From Propionicimonas sp. (GTDB lineage Bacteria; Actinomycetota; Actinomycetes; Propionibacteriales; Propionibacteriaceae): a DNA stretch of 41,057 bases. The notes below the pieces were generated by a model. That model did not search any database. It worked only from the letters and a program-made list of their open reading frames with translations, and was not told the DNA's origin. Position 1 is the first letter of the stretch; each line of letters opens with the position of its first letter. Shown in pieces: positions 16,341 to 35,959 of this stretch. The stretch is from contig JAOATP010000130.1 in assembly GCA_030158185.1 (NCBI GenBank), forward strand, positions 1 through 41,057, written 5' to 3'. The position numbers and the translations under genes were made by a program.

Positions 16341-18368
16341 TCAGCCGGCGGCCAGTACCGCCGAAAGGGTCGTTGTGCGCCGACGGGCCACGGCGATCGA
16401 GCTCGCCAGCACCCCCATCAGCAGCCACCCGACGAGGGTGAGGGTCGACGTCACGGCGCCCGAGGATTCCGTGACGATGGCGCGGACGGCGTCCAGCGCC
16501 GGCGTCAACGGCGAGAACGGACGCAGCGCCGCGAACAGTCCGGGAGCGGACCCCACGAGCGCCGCCGCAGCCGTCAGCACGGCGAACACGACAGAGACCA
16601 CGCGCCCGATCCCGTCCAGCCAGGCCACGAGGGCATGGTTGATGACGACGAAGGTCAGCCCGGCGATCACCAGCACGCCGGCCACCGCGAACCACTTCTG
16701 CAGCGACAGGTCCAGCCCGAACTGTCCGAGCCCGGCCACCAGCACCGCCTGCACGGCGATCACCACCGCACCCGGCAGCAGGGAGCGTGCGATCAGCAGC
16801 GCCGTCGGCTCCGAGGAGCTGAGCAGCCCGGCACCGACAGCCTTCACGACCGCATAGAACGCGAGGGCACCCAGCCAGAGCGAGAGGACGAGGATCAGGC
16901 TGATCCAGCCGAGGTCGGGGTTCGCGAGGCCGTTCAGGTCGCTGGTGTCGATCGGGGCTGCGACGACCGTCGAGAGGTTCTCCCTGTCCGAGCTGGAGAA
17001 GCTCGGGATCTTGTCCTTGCCCTCCGCGATGCCGTCGGCCATCTTCCGCATGCCGTCGGCGAGCTTGGTGCTTCCCGTGTGCGCGTCGATCAGGCCGGCG
17101 CCGAACGTGTCGATGCCGGTGGCGAGCTGGGCGGAGCCGTCAGCCAGCTTCGAGATGCCGTCGGTGAGGGCCGGGATGCCGTCGGCGAGCTTGTCCGTGC
17201 CGCCGGCCAACTGCTTGCCGCCGGCGGTGAGCTGCTTGAGCTGCGCGATCGTGTCCTTGTCTGTCGCTGCGGCCTCAAGGCCCTGCCGGAACTGCGTGAG
17301 GCCGCCGGTGAACTGCGTGACGCCCTGCTCCGCCGCCTGCCCGGCAGCGCCGACGCCGACGGTGGCGCCCACCTGCGCGCCGCCCTTCAGCCCGGCCTGG
17401 AACGCCTGGCACATCGCGGCCTGCGTGGACGGGTCGCCGAAGTCCGGGCAGGGCACCTGGGTGGCTGCCTGTTCCGCCGCGGCGGTCGCGCCCTGCACGA
17501 GCTGGGAGTTCGACGTGAAGTTGCCGAACTGCGCACCCATGCCTGCGGCGCCGTCCTCGAACTGCTTCACGGTCGCGATGATCGTCTGCTGCCCTTGCGC
17601 CGAGCCCGCGACGAGCTGGTCGACACCGTCGACGTACTGCGCGGCGCCGTTCGCCAGCTTGCGGACGTCCTTGGGCATCGACTTCGTCTTCGCGGCGAGC
17701 TGGCCAAGGCCGTCGGAGAGCTGGCTGGCGCCGGTGTAGAGCTGCTTGCCGCCGTCGGCCGCCTTGCCGATGCCGTCGGAAAGGGCCTCCGTCCCGTCCG
17801 CGAGCTGGCCGGAGGCGTCGGCGAGGGTCGCGAACTGCTTTCCGGTGTCGTTGAAGCCGATGTAGATCTGCTTCAGGTAGCTCTCGGTGAGGGTCTGGTT
17901 GAGCGTGATCGCAGCCTCGCTGGCCACCAGCTTGCCGAGCGTTGCGTCGGCGACGCCTGCGACCGGAGAAGTGCTCACCTCGATGGTGGCCTGCTCCGCC
18001 TGGTCGGCGTCCTTGCTGAAGGACGTTGCCGCTGCGGAGAAGTTCTGCGGGATCACGACCATGGCCGCGTAGGTCCCGGTGGCCAGCCCGGTGCGCGCGT
18101 TGGTCTCGCTCTCCAGCACCCAGGTGAGGTTCTCCTGGCGATCGGAGTCGACGAGGTTGGCTGTCAGCTGCCGGCCGAGCGGGGTGTACTGCCCGTTGAT
18201 GGTCACCGGGTCGTCGAGGTTCACGACCGCTGCCTTCACGGTGTGGGTGCGTGCATCGGCGTTCACTCCCGCCAGCAGGAACCCGCCGGCGACGAGCAGC
18301 GGCACCAGGAGCAGGCCGAGCAGGGTGTACCAGCGAGCCGGTGTCGAGTTCAGGTGCTCGAGATTCAT
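16341..18368 (-). CDS. YhgE/Pip-family ABC-2-like membrane protein
   Basis: A 675-residue membrane protein with one N-terminal transmembrane helix (about 13-33), a long extracytoplasmic region of some 430 residues and a cluster of about five C-terminal helices of ABC-2 permease type. The extracytoplasmic part contains two arrays of short 7-11-residue repeats of the LADG type (for example LADGTEALSDGI and LADGIPALTDGISKLADGSAQL), the hallmark of YhgE/Pip and phage-infection proteins. The ATG at 18368 has AGGAG seven bases upstream and overlaps the MMPL stop by one base (TGATG). Translational coupling suggests it works with the MMPL protein, whose C-terminus looks like an ABC ATPase remnant. 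The substrate is unknown. Confidence 0.88.
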   Translation of the reverse strand: MNLEHLNSTPARWYTLLGLLLVPLLVAGGFLLAGVNADARTHTVKAAVVNLDDPVTINGQYTPLGRQLTANLVDSDRQENLTWVLESETNARTGLATGTYAAMVVIPQNFSAAATSFSKDADQAEQATIEVSTSPVAGVADATLGKLVASEAAITLNQTLTESYLKQIYIGFNDTGKQFATLADASGQLADGTEALSDGIGKAADGGKQLYTGASQLSDGLGQLAAKTKSMPKDVRKLANGAAQYVDGVDQLVAGSAQGQQTIIATVKQFEDGAAGMGAQFGNFTSNSQLVQGATAAAEQAATQVPCPDFGDPSTQAAMCQAFQAGLKGGAQVGATVGVGAAGQAAEQGVTQFTGGLTQFRQGLEAAATDKDTIAQLKQLTAGGKQLAGGTDKLADGIPALTDGISKLADGSAQLATGIDTFGAGLIDAHTGSTKLADGMRKMADGIAEGKDKIPSFSSSDRENLSTVVAAPIDTSDLNGLANPDLGWISLILVLSLWLGALAFYAVVKAVGAGLLSSSEPTALLIARSLLPGAVVIAVQAVLVAGLGQFGLDLSLQKWFAVAGVLVIAGLTFVVINHALVAWLDGIGRVVSVVFAVLTAAAALVGSAPGLFAALRPFSPLTPALDAVRAIVTESSGAVTSTLTLVGWLLMGVLASSIAVARRRTTTLSAVLAAG

Positions 18369-21088
18369 CAGATCGCTCCTTCCAGGACGAGGTGAGAGGG
18401 CAACCGGATGAGCTGGTAGGCCACCGGCAACTGGGCTTCGAGGTCGGAACCGGGCATCACGCCGAGCACCCAGGTGATCGGGGCTTCTGCGTCCGGCTCG
18501 GCGCTGAGCGCGCGCCGCAGCGACCGGTCCTGCACGTCCTTGAGCTCGTCTGCACTGTCGACGCAGACGAGGCCGCCACGCTGGCGGCTGAGCACCCGTC
18601 CGAAGTGGGGCACGGAGGGGCCGAGCACGGGGGCGAGGCCGCGGACGACGGGTCCCTCCTCCGGCAGTACGTGGCCGAGGACCTTCAGGGTTCCCTCCGT
18701 CAGCTTCACGCGTCCGGCAAGGGCGAGCAGGAGGGCCCGCCGCTGGGCGTGCTCGCCCTCGACGACCAGCACCTGTCCCGGCTGGACGCTGAGGTCGATG
18801 CCGCGGAACAGCGTGCGCCCGCCCGCCTCGGCAGTGAGTCCCTCGCCGACGATCGCCGAGGTGTCCTCCGGCGTCGGCCAGCTGGCAAGGTGCACCTGCC
18901 GGGTGAGCGATTCGCCTTCGATGTCGAGGGACGGCAGCCGCGCGTCCAGCCACTTCGGCAGCCACCAGGCGTGGCGGCCGAGCAGCTTCATCACGGCGGG
19001 AACCAGCGTCATGCGGATCACGAAGGCGTCCAGCGCGACGCCGACGGCGAGGCTGAACGCGATCGGCTTGATCGCACCCTCACCGTTGGGCACGAAGAAG
19101 GCGAACACGGCGAACATGATCAGGCCGGCCGCGACGACGACGCGCGCCGAGTGCACGAACCCGTCCTCGACGGAGCGTTCGGTGTTGCCGTGCACGAACT
19201 CCTCCCGCATCCGGGAGACGAGGAACACCTCGTAGTCCATGGCGAGGCCGAACAGGATGCCCATAAGGATGATCGGAAGGAAGCTGATCACCGGTCCGGT
19301 CTCTGGCAGGTTGATCAGCTGCTTCGCCCAGCCCTTGTTGAACACGAGGACCGTCGCCCCGAAGGCGCCGAGGACGCTCAACAGGTAGCCCAGCGCTGCC
19401 TTGATCGGCACCCAGATCGAGCGGAAGACGATGGTGAGCAGGATGAGCGACAACCCGACGACGAAGATGCCGAACGGCAGCAGCGCTGCCTGCAGCTGGT
19501 GCGTGACGTCGATCTGGATGGCCGTGAACCCGGTGACGGCCGTGGTCACGTCGTAGGCCTGCTTCCACTCGTCCTCGCGCTCACGGAGCCGCTCGACAAG
19601 GTCGGCCGTCGCCGGGTCGTCGGGCCCGGTGGTCGGAATGATCTGCACCATGCCGGTGTCGACGTTCGCATTCGGGGTGGACGCGGCAACCATGTGCACG
19701 CCCGGCATCTTCTCGATGTCGGCCTTCAGCCCGTCCAGGGCCTCGATGGGGTCGTCGAGCTCGACGATGTCGACCGTCATGATCAGCGGGCCGTTGAACC
19801 CGATGCCGAACGTGCTCGTGATCTCGTCGAAGGTCTCACGGTCCTGCGTGCCGGGCAGCGAGTGGCCCGACGTCGGGAGCGCCATCGACAGGTCCTTCGC
19901 CGGGTAGGCGAGTGCGCCGATCCCGACCAGCACGACAACGATGGTGAGCACCGGCCAGGCCGTGACGAGCTTGACCCACCTCGAAGCGAAGCCGTGGGCA
20001 TCCTTGGTCTCGACAGGCTCGACCACCGACGTGCGGGTCGAGCCCCTGACCTTCCGGACCTTCTTCGGCTTCGGACGCAGCCGCTCACCTGCGAAGCCCA
20101 TGAAGGCCGGCAGGAGCGTGAGGGCGAGCAGCACCTCGAAGGCGACGGTGAGGGCGCCGAAGACGCCCATCACGGTGAGGAACGGGAGCCCGGCGATGCT
20201 CAGCCCGACGAGCGCGATGACGACGGTGAGGCCGGCGAACACCACTGCGGAGCCGGCGGTGCCGACGGCGCGGGCTGCGGATTCCTCCACCTCCATGCCG
20301 GAGGCGAGCTGGTCGCGGTGCCGGGAGATGATGAACAGCGCGTAGTCGATGCCAACGGCGAGGCCCAGCATGATCGCCAGCATCAGGGTGGTCGAGCTCA
20401 CGGAGATCACCCCGGCGGCGATCTGCACGCTGAGGACGCCGATGCCGACACCGGCGATCGCCGTGCCCACCGGCATCATCGAGGCGACCAGCGACCCGAG
20501 GGTGATCACGAGGACGATGATCGCGACCCCGAGGCCCAGCGCCTCGACGACGGTGATACGCGGCACGTGGATGGAGAAGATCTCGCCACCGATCAGCACC
20601 GTCGAGCCGGGCAGTGTGGTCTCGAGCGTCCCGGCCGCCTCGGTAAGCTCCTCGCGCTGCACGTCGGTGATGGTCGATGAGGTGCCTTCCACCCGGATCA
20701 TGGCCCGACCGCTGGTGCCGTCTTCACTGATCAGGCCGTCGATGTTCTCGTTGTAGGGGTCGATGACGCCCTTCACCATCGGTACCTTCTCGAGTTCCTT
20801 CGACCAGTCGGCGATGGCGTCCTTGACCAGGCGGTCCTCCATCTTCGCGCCACTGGGTGCCGTGATCAGCACCGTCGCGGTCGCGTCCGCCGCCTCGGGG
20901 AAGGTCACCTTCAGCTGGTTCAGCGCCTTGGTCGAGCTGGCGCCGGGCACCTCGAAGGTGTCGTTGAAGTGGCCGCCGATCGTCAGTGCGAGACCGGCGA
21001 ACAGCACGATCACCACGGTCCAGCCGATCAGCACCCGGCCACGCAACCGGTAGCACGCACGTCCGAGGCGGTAGAGGAACGATGACAA
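18368..21088 (-). CDS. MMPL-family (RND) transporter with C-terminal degenerate ABC-ATPase domain
   Basis: A 906-residue protein. Residues 1-730 form a complete MMPL/RND exporter: twelve transmembrane helices in two halves, two extracytoplasmic loops, and the proton-relay GIDYALFIISRHRDQ (246-260) and MDYEVFLVSRMREE motifs. Residues 746-906 resemble an ABC nucleotide-binding domain (LTAEAGGRTLFRGIDLSVQPGQ, then LLLALAGRVKLTEGTLKVLG). The Walker A loop reads EGEHAQRRA with no GKS/T, no LSGGQ is visible, and GLVCVDSADEL sits where Walker B would be, so it should not hydrolyse ATP. A dispersed repeat encodes SVVEPVETK (354-362) in the cytoplasmic linker. The TTG start has AAGG upstream. It is co-transcribed with YhgE and faces tetR. 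It probably exports a lipid or drug (family inference). Confidence 0.9.
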   Translation of the reverse strand: MSSFLYRLGRACYRLRGRVLIGWTVVIVLFAGLALTIGGHFNDTFEVPGASSTKALNQLKVTFPEAADATATVLITAPSGAKMEDRLVKDAIADWSKELEKVPMVKGVIDPYNENIDGLISEDGTSGRAMIRVEGTSSTITDVQREELTEAAGTLETTLPGSTVLIGGEIFSIHVPRITVVEALGLGVAIIVLVITLGSLVASMMPVGTAIAGVGIGVLSVQIAAGVISVSSTTLMLAIMLGLAVGIDYALFIISRHRDQLASGMEVEESAARAVGTAGSAVVFAGLTVVIALVGLSIAGLPFLTVMGVFGALTVAFEVLLALTLLPAFMGFAGERLRPKPKKVRKVRGSTRTSVVEPVETKDAHGFASRWVKLVTAWPVLTIVVVLVGIGALAYPAKDLSMALPTSGHSLPGTQDRETFDEITSTFGIGFNGPLIMTVDIVELDDPIEALDGLKADIEKMPGVHMVAASTPNANVDTGMVQIIPTTGPDDPATADLVERLREREDEWKQAYDVTTAVTGFTAIQIDVTHQLQAALLPFGIFVVGLSLILLTIVFRSIWVPIKAALGYLLSVLGAFGATVLVFNKGWAKQLINLPETGPVISFLPIILMGILFGLAMDYEVFLVSRMREEFVHGNTERSVEDGFVHSARVVVAAGLIMFAVFAFFVPNGEGAIKPIAFSLAVGVALDAFVIRMTLVPAVMKLLGRHAWWLPKWLDARLPSLDIEGESLTRQVHLASWPTPEDTSAIVGEGLTAEAGGRTLFRGIDLSVQPGQVLVVEGEHAQRRALLLALAGRVKLTEGTLKVLGHVLPEEGPVVRGLAPVLGPSVPHFGRVLSRQRGGLVCVDSADELKDVQDRSLRRALSAEPDAEAPITWVLGVMPGSDLEAQLPVAYQLIRLPSHLVLEGAI
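20006..20028 (-). repeat. Dispersed VVEPVET-type repeat inside the MMPL gene
   Basis: The 23 bases beginning GGTCTCGACAGGCTCGACCA match, from memory, a repeat common in intergenic and coding DNA of several actinobacteria. In frame it adds VVEPVET to the linker between the two MMPL halves, where an insertion is tolerated. Confidence 0.5.
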
Positions 21089-21123: not shown

Positions 21124-21157
21124 CGATACAGTATCGTATTCAATACAGCTCTGTATT
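21124..21157. promoter_or_regulatory. Stacked palindromic operator between MMPL and tetR genes
   Basis: Three overlapping palindromes fill 34 bases: CGATAC-A-GTATCG (21124-21136), GTATT-C-AATAC (about 21136-21147) and AATACAG-CT-CTGTATT (21142-21157). They share an ATAC/GTAT core and sit between the divergent starts at 21088 and 21178. This is the expected position of both promoters, so TetR dimers could control both directions. No reliable -35/-10 pair could be fixed. Confidence 0.75.
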
Positions 21158-21177: not shown

Positions 21178-21819
21178 ATGGCCATGACCACCCTTACGCC
21201 TCGCCGCACCCAGACCCGCGAGAAGCTGATGGACGCTGCGACGGTCCTGTTCGCGCAGAAGGGCGTGCTGGCGGCCAGCGTCGAGGAGATCTGCGAACGC
21301 GCCGAGTTCACCCGCGGAGCCTTCTACTCCAACTTCGCCGACAAGGACGAGCTCTGCCTCGCCGTGCTGAACCGGCAGGCCGCCCGTGAACTGGTCGCCA
21401 CACAGAAGGCCGTCGCAACCCTGAGCGGTGACGTCCTCGAGGCCAACACCATCGACGGGCTGGTCGAGTCGGCCCTCAGCGTCTTCCTCGCCGCCCAGCC
21501 GCGCAGGAGCGAGGACCTCCTCGCCGCGATGGAGCTGCGGTTGCACGCGATCCGGAATCCCGCCCTGCGGGCGCCCCTCCTCGCGCTCAACGACGAAATG
21601 GTCGACCAGATCGGGACCCTGCTGGTGACAGCGATCGGACGGGTCGGCGCGACCCTCACCGTCCCGGTCGCCCAGGCGATCGACCTGCTGCACGCCGTGT
21701 ACGCCCACAGCGGTGGCACGGCCCTCCTGCACGGCCTCGAGCCCGACGACCGGTCACGCAGGGAGCAGCTGACGGCCCTCATGCGGTCGCTGGTGAGCGA
21801 GGACTGCAAGCCTCGGTAG
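21178..21819 (+). CDS. TetR-family transcriptional regulator
   Basis: A 213-residue repressor-type protein. The N-terminal TetR helix-turn-helix covers about residues 8-60 (TREKLMDAATVLFAQKGVLAASVEEICERAEFTRGAFYSNFADKDEL), with the family hallmark FTRGAFYSNFADKDEL. The ligand-binding C-terminal domain is helical and divergent, so the inducer cannot be guessed. The ATG at 21178 has GGAGGG upstream. An in-frame ATG at 21184 is less likely. It diverges from the MMPL-YhgE pair across stacked palindromes, the standard arrangement for a local repressor of an exporter. It ends nine bases before the lactate dehydrogenase gene, so the two may share a transcript. Confidence 0.92.
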   Translation: MAMTTLTPRRTQTREKLMDAATVLFAQKGVLAASVEEICERAEFTRGAFYSNFADKDELCLAVLNRQAARELVATQKAVATLSGDVLEANTIDGLVESALSVFLAAQPRRSEDLLAAMELRLHAIRNPALRAPLLALNDEMVDQIGTLLVTAIGRVGATLTVPVAQAIDLLHAVYAHSGGTALLHGLEPDDRSRREQLTALMRSLVSEDCKPR

Positions 21820-33253: not shown

Positions 33254-35959
33254 TCAGGCGTTGTCGGGGTCCAGCCCGGTCTCGATCACCCGCTGTGCGA
33301 TCTCGCGCAGCCGGATGTTGCGGTCCTGGGACGCCCGTCGCAGCTTCTGGAACGCCTCTCCCGGCGTGACGCGGTGGCGCTCGACGAGGATTCCGACCGC
33401 CTGGCCGACCGCCCGATGGCTCTCGATGGCCCGCTCGAGGTTCGCCTGCCGGTCGGCCAGCTCGTCGACAGCCAGCACCCGGTCGAGGGCGAGGGCAAAA
33501 GCCTGGGCCAGCAGGTCGGCGACGATCTGCTCGTCCGTGCTGACGATGCGGGGGGCTGCGAACTGCACCCACGCACGGGTACCGCTCGCTGCGCTCTGCG
33601 GCAGCAGGAGGATCCCGTCCACCGGCAGCGCTGCATCCACCGGCCCGGCGAGCGGCGTCCCGGCGAGCCGGACGGTGATGTGCTCGGGCAGGCTGTCGGT
33701 GGCAACCGGGCCATAGGCCGTGAAGGTCTGGGTCGTGCCCGCCCCGTCCACCTGCACGGTGGAGTCGCCGTCGAACAGGGTGTGCAGGCCGTCGACGGCG
33801 ATGCTCACCAGCTGGTCGAGCGCCTCAGCCGTCGCGAAGTCCGAGACCACCCGTGCAGCCGCCTGCCGGCGCTCCAGCGCCACGTGCTCCCGCGTGACGT
33901 CGCGCAGGGTCTTCAGGATCGCCGTCCGGCTCCGTCCGGGCACTTCGACAGAACTGCCGTAGGCGGAGACCCAGAGGCGGCGACCGTCGCGGTGACGGAC
34001 CTCGAACTCGCCCTGCAGCTGGTCGCCCTGCACCAGGGCCTCCTGCGCCCGGCTGCGGAGTGCGAACGCCTCCGGATCCGTCGCGGGGTCCGGCCACCAC
34101 GGGTACGGCGGACGCAGCGGACCGTCGTCCAGCGACCACCCGACGATGCGGGTGAAGGCCTCGTTCATCTCCGTGACGAGGCCGTCGGAGTCGGCGATGA
34201 GCACGGCCTCCTGCATGGAAGCGACAACGGCACGTCGCCAGCCGGCGTCCAGGCTCCGGTCGGAGGCCCTGCGCAGGTTGCTGGCGAGACGGGCGCGCAG
34301 GTCGGCGAGGTCGAAGGGCTTCACGACGTAGTCGTCAGCGCCCCGCTCCAGCCCGGTGACGGCAGCCTCCTGCCCGGCACGTGCCGACAGCATCACCACC
34401 GGCAGGTCCTTCAGCTCCGGGTCGCTGCGGATCTCCGCCACCAGCGCGAACCCGTCGAGGCCGGGCATCATCACATCGGTGAGGAGCACATCGGGACGGC
34501 GTGCCCGTGCTGCTGCGAGGGCCTGCAGGCCGTCGGCCACCGACTCGACCTGGTAGCTGTCGGCGAGCACCTCGGCGAGGTAGCGCGCCATGTCCGTGCT
34601 GTCCTCCGCGATCAGCAGGCGGGGACGCGGGGCGGCGTCCGCTGCTCGCTCCACAGGGGCGATCGGCCTCTCCCAGCCTTCCACCTCTGCGAGGAAGGCC
34701 TCGACGCCGCGCGGGGTGATCGACCGGGCGCCCTCCGCAGCCTGTGGGTGCTGTGGCGGCCGGTAAGGCAGCTGGACGGTGAACGTGCTGCCGCGCCCCG
34801 GTGCTGACCGCAGGTCGACGGAGCCGCCGAGGAGTTCCGTGAGCTCCTTCACCATGGCGAGGCCGATGCCCGCACCGTCGGAGCTGCGCGACTGGGAGCG
34901 GCGTGCCAGCTGCTCGAAACGGGCGAAGACCCGGTTCTGGTCGCGCACGGCGATGCCCAGCCCGGTGTCGGTGACCGCGACCTCGAAGCCGTCGGGCAGC
35001 GCCGTGAGTTGCAGCCGCACCGAACCCCGGGGGGTGTACTTGAGCGCGTTCGAGAGCAGGTTGAGCACGATGCGCTCGACGATGTCGCGGTCCAGCTGGC
35101 CGAGCCGGGGCAGGTCCGGCAGGTCGACGGTGAACTCGAGCCCTGCCCTCTCGATCGCGGGGCCGAAGCCGGCGGCAAGGGACCGCAGCAGCGCGGCCAC
35201 GTCGACCTCCGTGAGGTTGGGCACGATGCGCCCGGCCTCCATGCGGCTGAAGTCGAGCATGGCGTCGACCATGCGGCGCAACCGGACGACGTTGCCGCGC
35301 ACCAGCACCAGCCGGTCGCGCGCCGTGCCTGCGACGGTCTCGTCGGAGAGCACCTCCTGCAGGGGAGCGGAGATCAGGGAGAGCGGTGTGCGCAGCTCGT
35401 GGCTGACGTTGGCGAGGAAGGCCGACTTCGCGGCGTCCAGCTCGCGCAGGGTCTCGGAGTGCTGGCGTTCGAGGGCCAGCTCGCGCAGGCCGCTGAGGCC
35501 GGCACCGATCAGGCCGGCAGCGAGCTCGAGGTAGTCGGCGAACTCACCGTCCGTGCTCAGCTGGCAGGTGCTTCCCACGACGAGGACCAGCGATGGTGCG
35601 TCCTGGCCGGGTTCGACGATCGGACGGGCGAACAGCTCTGCGATGCCCTCCGGGCTCGTGACCGCCAGAACCTCGAGGCGGCCGGAGCTCGTCGCTGCGA
35701 CGGCGAGCGCGTGGGCCTCCGCTGCGTGGTGTCCGGTCGGGTCGGCCACCGGGCCCGACGTCGAGACCGAAGGGCTCAGCTCGCCGTAGCCCTGGGAGAG
35801 CACCTCCAGCAACCACACCAGTGGGGTGTCGGTGTCGTTGTGGCGCAGCACCGCCGCCGCCCGGGTGGCGACCTGATCGGGCGCCTCAGCGAGGGCCACG
35901 GCGTCGGCAAGCCGAGCGAGGATCCCCAGCCGCAGGGACGCCGCCTGGGTCAGCTCCAC
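33254..35959 (-). CDS. Hybrid sensor kinase with receiver, PAS, GAF and C-terminal ANTAR domains
   Basis: A 901-residue soluble signalling protein. A GAF-like region spans about 10-160. HisKA has the phospho-accepting H187 in FLANVSHELRTPLS, and the ATPase domain spans about 250-400 (N304; DTGLGI 331-336; DGAGIGLAMV 361-370). A receiver at 445-560 has acidic E452/D453, phospho-site D495 in LLTDVMMPG, and K547. A PAS domain (about 575-690, NEAFTRIVGWSL) is followed by a second GAF-like domain (700-830) and an ANTAR domain (about 838-896, ESHRAVGQAVGILVERHRVTPGEAF). ANTAR domains bind RNA hairpins to prevent termination. It could relay phosphate from H187 to D495 to control ANTAR within one chain. 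The GTG start has AAGGAG eight bases upstream, and no transmembrane helix is seen. Confidence 0.9.
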   Translation of the reverse strand: MELTQAASLRLGILARLADAVALAEAPDQVATRAAAVLRHNDTDTPLVWLLEVLSQGYGELSPSVSTSGPVADPTGHHAAEAHALAVAATSSGRLEVLAVTSPEGIAELFARPIVEPGQDAPSLVLVVGSTCQLSTDGEFADYLELAAGLIGAGLSGLRELALERQHSETLRELDAAKSAFLANVSHELRTPLSLISAPLQEVLSDETVAGTARDRLVLVRGNVVRLRRMVDAMLDFSRMEAGRIVPNLTEVDVAALLRSLAAGFGPAIERAGLEFTVDLPDLPRLGQLDRDIVERIVLNLLSNALKYTPRGSVRLQLTALPDGFEVAVTDTGLGIAVRDQNRVFARFEQLARRSQSRSSDGAGIGLAMVKELTELLGGSVDLRSAPGRGSTFTVQLPYRPPQHPQAAEGARSITPRGVEAFLAEVEGWERPIAPVERAADAAPRPRLLIAEDSTDMARYLAEVLADSYQVESVADGLQALAAARARRPDVLLTDVMMPGLDGFALVAEIRSDPELKDLPVVMLSARAGQEAAVTGLERGADDYVVKPFDLADLRARLASNLRRASDRSLDAGWRRAVVASMQEAVLIADSDGLVTEMNEAFTRIVGWSLDDGPLRPPYPWWPDPATDPEAFALRSRAQEALVQGDQLQGEFEVRHRDGRRLWVSAYGSSVEVPGRSRTAILKTLRDVTREHVALERRQAAARVVSDFATAEALDQLVSIAVDGLHTLFDGDSTVQVDGAGTTQTFTAYGPVATDSLPEHITVRLAGTPLAGPVDAALPVDGILLLPQSAASGTRAWVQFAAPRIVSTDEQIVADLLAQAFALALDRVLAVDELADRQANLERAIESHRAVGQAVGILVERHRVTPGEAFQKLRRASQDRNIRLREIAQRVIETGLDPDNA

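Follow-up and report, generated by a model that had tools for sequence, protein, structure and literature searches.

Resistance-nodulation-division (RND) pumps are classed apart from ATP-binding cassette (ABC) transporters by their source of energy. On the RND side, the MMPL protein MmpL3 is the trehalose monomycolate exporter and bears a C-terminal cytoplasmic extension; on the ABC side, the type V exporters ABCG5/G8, ABCG2 and ABCA1 bear ATPase-active nucleotide-binding domains (NBDs). The YhgE/Pip membrane proteins are a widespread family described as being without known function; phage infection is the context in which Pip of Enterococcus and Lactococcus is known, and the part of that account cited here makes no mention of an ATPase partner (PMC4999554). 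We describe here a gene that joins both energy classes, from a 41,057-nucleotide stretch of Propionicimonas sp. (contig JAOATP010000130.1; "the window" in what follows is this whole stretch). It encodes an MMPL pump ending in an ABC-type domain which, unlike those of ABCG5/G8, ABCG2 and ABCA1, is degenerate and carried by another pump, and it is followed directly by a YhgE gene. This RND-pseudoABC fusion is conserved and, wherever that could be tested, paired with YhgE; it sits within a wider family of pseudo-NBDs linked to YhgE, whose members occur across the class. A specific partner domain can thereby be assigned to YhgE/Pip, and experiments can now ask directly where YhgE takes its energy from. 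In a literature search by titles and abstract openings, no description of an MMPL-ABC fusion or of a YhgE-linked NBD was recognised.

An MMPL pump with a degenerate ABC tail

The fusion gene (18368..21088, 906 amino acids plus stop) lies on the minus strand, as do all features below unless stated otherwise; a first-pass annotation, made from the letters alone, had given the same frame without a strand. It starts with TTG at 21088, preceded by a GGAAGG-type ribosome site. Residues 1 to about 715 (18944..21088) belong to the MMPL family (PF03176, E 4.4e-83, 279.4 bits for a gathering cut-off of 20.5), which bears out the exporter assignment of that annotation, and their nearest solved structure is MmpL3 (7nvh, E 5.4e-42). 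The two Asp-Tyr pairs, one per half (D248-Y249, 20342..20347; D618-Y619, 19232..19237), are invariant across 31 aligned MMPL proteins and align with those of MmpL3; from work on MmpL3 we take them to be the proton relay. The protein differs from MmpL3: it reaches 163.5 of the 1400 bits asked by the MmpL3 equivalog model (NF052608, NCBIfam), and MmpL3 has neither the ABC-type tail nor the YhgE partner.

The tail (residues 716-906, 18371..18943) comprises a linker and a degenerate NBD core, the NBD fold being aligned over residues 742-899. The ABC-like motifs that had been quoted, GGRTLFRGIDLSVQPGQ and then VVEGEHAQRRALLLALAGRVKLTEGTLKVLG, are indeed there. Walker A, which had been reported as lost, reads GEHAQRRA (residues 778-785, 18734..18757), is one residue short of a P-loop, has Arg at the Lys position and does not fit GxxxxGK[ST]. 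Walker B reads LVCVDS (residues 840-845, 18554..18571), with the Asp retained and Ser at the position of the catalytic Glu, and so lacks the Asp-plus-Glu combination. Only 61 residues separate the P-loop from Walker B, whereas 11 canonical NBDs encoded in the source genome have 114-131 there, and from this spacing we conclude that the helical subdomain, together with its LSGGQ signature, is gone; both are absent from the window tail in the motif alignment. The first-pass annotation, which had merely seen no LSGGQ, was right about the motif and understated the loss. The tail differs from FtsE/MalK/NosF-type NBDs in having no Walker A Lys, helical subdomain, signature or catalytic Glu. Motifs were read from a single alignment comprising 101 fused domains together with 24 stand-alone and 11 canonical ones; the canonical NBDs are those passing regular expressions among 30 loci of the source genome (four found earlier elsewhere were not used), and the canonical profile was built from seven of them.

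Taken as a single sequence, the tail resembles ABC proteins weakly. The NCBIfam models PhnT (E 7e-4) and CcmA (E 8e-4) both stay far under their cut-offs, a Pfam search of the window tail alone returned no family up to E 1, ABC_tran included, and phmmer against the PDB gave a best E of 0.0076. Because a profile-profile comparison with the seven canonical NBDs gives 96.5% probability (E 8e-10), six out of six hand-picked relatives pass the Pfam ABC_tran cut-off, and the predicted structure is a well-folded model with the NBD core fold, the resemblance is, as judged from profiles and model, not due to chance. Motif losses, profile match and predicted fold support the view, already that of the first-pass annotation, that the tail is a pseudo-ATPase of ABC type, dead by motif; a fold unrelated to ABC domains had been named beforehand as grounds for abandoning it, and the predicted fold is that of an ABC domain.

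YhgE linkage and the history of the tail

The partner gene (16341..18368) encodes a YhgE/Pip protein of 675 amino acids with an ABC-2/ABCG-like membrane domain and a heptad-repeat extracytoplasmic part. The TGA stop of the fusion gene (18368-18370) shares bases with the ATG of YhgE (18366-18368) in a TGATG overlap (18366..18370), which suggests translational coupling, as had been proposed. The protein is related to the YhgE/Pip and EsaA/YueB membrane proteins: it passes the N-terminal YhgE/Pip model TIGR03061 (112.1 bits, cut-off 96.15), falls short of the C-terminal model TIGR03062 (69.7 bits, cut-off 102.2) and matches the NCBIfam EsaA N-terminal model under its cut-off. Its likeness to an ABC-2/ABCG permease, also noted in the first pass, comes from Pfam and from the fold of a weak model. 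The source genome, a 2.84 Mb draft that is 80% complete, has a single YhgE match.

Whether YhgE always follows a tailed MMPL gene had been put forward as a survey worth making. Among 101 distinct fused proteins, with identical copies (13 pairs) counted once, YhgE lies directly downstream in 100 (HMM E <1e-20), and the remaining contig stops 20 nt past the stop codon; by contrast, the fetched flanks of 24 unfused MMPL loci contain no YhgE. The set leaves out L131, whose pump part is cut at 620 codons and which has YhgE downstream, and L031, which carries an unrelated C-terminal extension. Where a start could be assigned to YhgE (95 loci), the genes overlap by four nucleotides of ATGA type in 56 cases and in TGATG fashion in 21. 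A survey of 296 genomes of the class with the L117 protein as query found at least 24 genomes with a match reaching query residue 800 or beyond, and in 24 of these 24, among the matches listed, a YhgE match follows 33-396 bases further on the same strand; some of these genomes overlap with the set of 101. Leaving out the two split genes and counting from mechanically assigned starts, intact YhgE partners at fused loci measure 646-1097 codons, so the length of the extracytoplasmic rod varies greatly. An apparent single chain of MMPL, tail and YhgE (L057/L242, the latter being G039:C2:857000-866000; a 1842-codon frame) was not taken as evidence for a natural triple fusion: the frame change near the tail end may be real or a sequencing indel, as another frame holds a plausible tail end, and L057/L242 was kept within the 101.

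The linkage extends beyond the fusion. From the class survey we hand-picked 40 YhgE loci for spread over families; directly upstream of YhgE, 24 have a separate related NBD and 11 an MMPL-tail fusion (nine by HMM, L201 and L207 by other evidence). The stand-alone NBDs have 204-320 codons (15 loci with a gene called); of the 24 that their HMM matches, 15 served to build it and eight went into the stand-alone profile (A3). Like the tail they are degenerate: in L172-L196 except L186, such a protein precedes YhgE in 24 of 25 loci, with the P-loop Lys mostly replaced by Arg or His and with a GR motif. At the Lys position the 24 stand-alone domains have Lys twice, Arg 12 times and His seven times, and none has the SG of the signature. 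The Arg after the Walker A helix, which in the window belongs to G792-R793 (18710..18715), occurs in 98/101 fused, 24/24 stand-alone and 0/11 canonical domains; with this GR and its direct linkage to YhgE, the window tail falls within the YhgE-linked pseudo-NBD clade as we define it. In a domain tree (97 columns, small canonical set) canonical NBDs split from fused and stand-alone rows with an SH-aLRT of 98, the latter two not being cleanly separated, and a profile-profile comparison of tail and stand-alone domains gives 98.9% (E 2.5e-17). The tail and the stand-alone NBDs linked to YhgE are thus of common ancestry. Since stand-alone degenerate NBDs stand upstream of YhgE in 24/40 loci, the domain seems to have been a partner proper to YhgE before it was tethered to an MMPL pump. 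Two genomes contain both kinds of YhgE system, a stand-alone pseudo-NBD accompanying one and an MMPL fusion the other (L184/L109 in G046, L181/L209 in G041).

The fused lineage is, on a pump tree (FastTree, 97 fused and 23 unfused pump parts), conserved and of one origin. The tree omits L057 and the N-terminally cut L127-L129 from the 101, and L031 from the unfused; it requires one change for the fusion, one for the helical deletion and four for the P-loop state. Over all 101 tails, a GxxxxGK[ST] P-loop is kept in 13 and missing in 88, the helical region is kept in eight and missing in 93, and the signature SG occurs in none. In six rows (L116-L121) the NBD is still full-length and its P-loop intact, with a degenerate signature and a Walker B DD; L113, L114, L122, L123, L014, L098 and L109 have lost the helical region with the P-loop intact; and the P-loop is missing in 84 of the 97 fused rows, 79 of which form one clade, all without it, that includes the window. 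The states on the tree thus suggest fusion, then excision of the helical subdomain, then loss of the P-loop, broadly in that order. The order is complicated by the basal, long-branch L124 and L126, which have lost the P-loop and retain the helical region, and on whose joint long branches the tree program gave a warning; an independent P-loop loss is possible in these two.

The tail evolves under purifying selection. Among 18 close relatives the median dN/dS is 0.34 for the tail (146 of 153 pairs) versus 0.28 for the pump (153 pairs), these ratios being rough since dS is high and partly saturated in such GC-rich genes. In 12 close relatives the mutated P-loop stretch has a conservation of 0.89 versus 0.79 for the whole tail, and ranks 27th among 147 nine-residue stretches.

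A possible hybrid transporter and its alternatives

We favour, with somewhat better than even confidence, the hypothesis that YhgE has its cognate pseudo-NBD in this tail, carried on a proton-driven MMPL pump. In such a complex, YhgE would provide an ABCG-type membrane domain, whose fold expects NBDs on its cytoplasmic face, and the tail, covalently joined to the cytoplasmic end of the pump, would dock there without ATP hydrolysis and probably without ATP binding, thereby tethering an MMPL protomer to YhgE. Energy would come from the MMPL part, whose Asp-Tyr pairs are intact, and the exit path, either passive or gated mechanically, would be YhgE with its long extracytoplasmic rod. Docking and proton-driven motion are here inferred from genetics and fold, and the stoichiometry and energy coupling of the complex are likewise conjectural. 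The substrate may be lipid-like, to judge from the relatives among MMPL and ABCG proteins and from a single case of co-induction: in the portion of a Saccharopolyspora hirsuta study cited here, the YhgE gene F1721_04135 is up 3.82-fold with cholesterol and the next tag, F1721_04140, an MMPL gene for which no tail is implied, 3.33-fold (PMC9782250). More speculatively, and we regard this as rather doubtful, YhgE would be an ABCG-type exporter whose ATPases first lost their activity and later became joined to an RND/MMPL pump, the dead ABC domain relaying movements powered by the proton motive force to an ABC-type exit gate; if true, such a switch of energy class would amount to a hybrid RND-ABC transporter, likely derived from the stand-alone YhgE-pseudoNBD pairs that occur across the class. 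The hybrid complex suggested by the first-pass annotation is partly supported, that is, strengthened but unproven.

Several observations weigh against the docking hypothesis. The YhgE model is weak (pLDDT 66, pTM 0.39); Foldseek with it returns coiled-coil chemoreceptors first and ABC permeases at E 0.1-0.9, and a sequence search for solved YhgE relatives gave only matches that we read as chance coiled-coil ones. Over 56 of 71 loci, those with TetR, evolutionary rates of the tail and of the YhgE membrane part covary with a partial r of 0.22 (0/500 permutations as high), little above the TetR control (0.16, 8/500), and gene adjacency can reflect co-regulation only. Five of the 40 YhgE loci (L186, L197, L198, L204, L211) have no recognisable NBD partner, and YhgE is in two pieces, as separate open frames, at the fused loci L095 and L105. 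The motif counts rest on a single MAFFT alignment and, as 13 of the 101 tails keep the P-loop, binding of nucleotides may be important to some family members. Concerning these loci, the split YhgE of L095 and L105 may be interrupted or misassembled, and the source contigs of L197 and L198 each hold two YhgE-type matches at most 3 kb apart.

One may object that the tail serves the MMPL pump itself, as a regulatory or scaffold domain, and that YhgE merely belongs to the same regulon. Indeed MmpL3 has C-terminal cytoplasmic domains, the tail shares its chain with MMPL, and the distances of tail and pump are correlated (partial r 0.48 with YhgE taken into account), although a single chain explains that. 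We think this unlikely, because the same type of domain occurs as a gene of its own immediately before YhgE in 24/40 loci, no MMPL is among the listed neighbours of these 24 (the lists being imperfect for L180, L184 and others), and the fused form has YhgE wherever the contig permitted a test. Heterodimeric ABC proteins with one degenerate site exist, TmrAB and CFTR are among the matches, and the genome has 71 ABC_tran matches, so that the tail could form half of an asymmetric pair with a competent ATPase encoded elsewhere that powers YhgE; this is less probable still, since an NBD sandwich uses the helical subdomain and signature, both missing from the tail, and the NBD beside YhgE in stand-alone loci is likewise degenerate.

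About as improbable, or slightly more so, is a nucleotide-binding switch, whose ancestor bound ATP without hydrolysis and which in the clade of the window was replaced by another ligand or a constitutive state. The full-length tails of L116-L121 and the conservation of the mutated P-loop stretch itself speak for it, but the window tail, its loop shortened and with Arg for Lys, gives no sign of a ligand. That the tail is a functionless, decaying remnant or a recent mutation, as the loss of the examined catalytic motifs might indicate, we hold to be very improbable: both the recent-mutant and the pseudogene readings were rejected on the pump tree and the (rough) dN/dS ratios, which are well below 1, and the model is well folded. 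Relatives with an intact P-loop, raised beforehand as a possible sign of recent mutation, do exist, but the loss is old and shared.

Regulatory and other neighbours

A TetR-family regulator (21178..21819, plus strand; PF00440, E 3.5e-13) is encoded divergently, and between it and the fusion gene two palindromes seen by eye, GATACAGTATC (21125-21135) and AATACAG-CT-CTGTATT (21142-21157), may act as operators (21125..21157). A divergent TetR is near 89/110 testable fused loci (duplicates included), versus any TetR near 9/23 unfused ones; since TetR is thus also found near the latter, we rejected it as a mark specific to the fusion. Elsewhere in the window, 33257..35959 encodes a single chain of 901 amino acids that combines histidine kinase, receiver, PAS and ANTAR domains.
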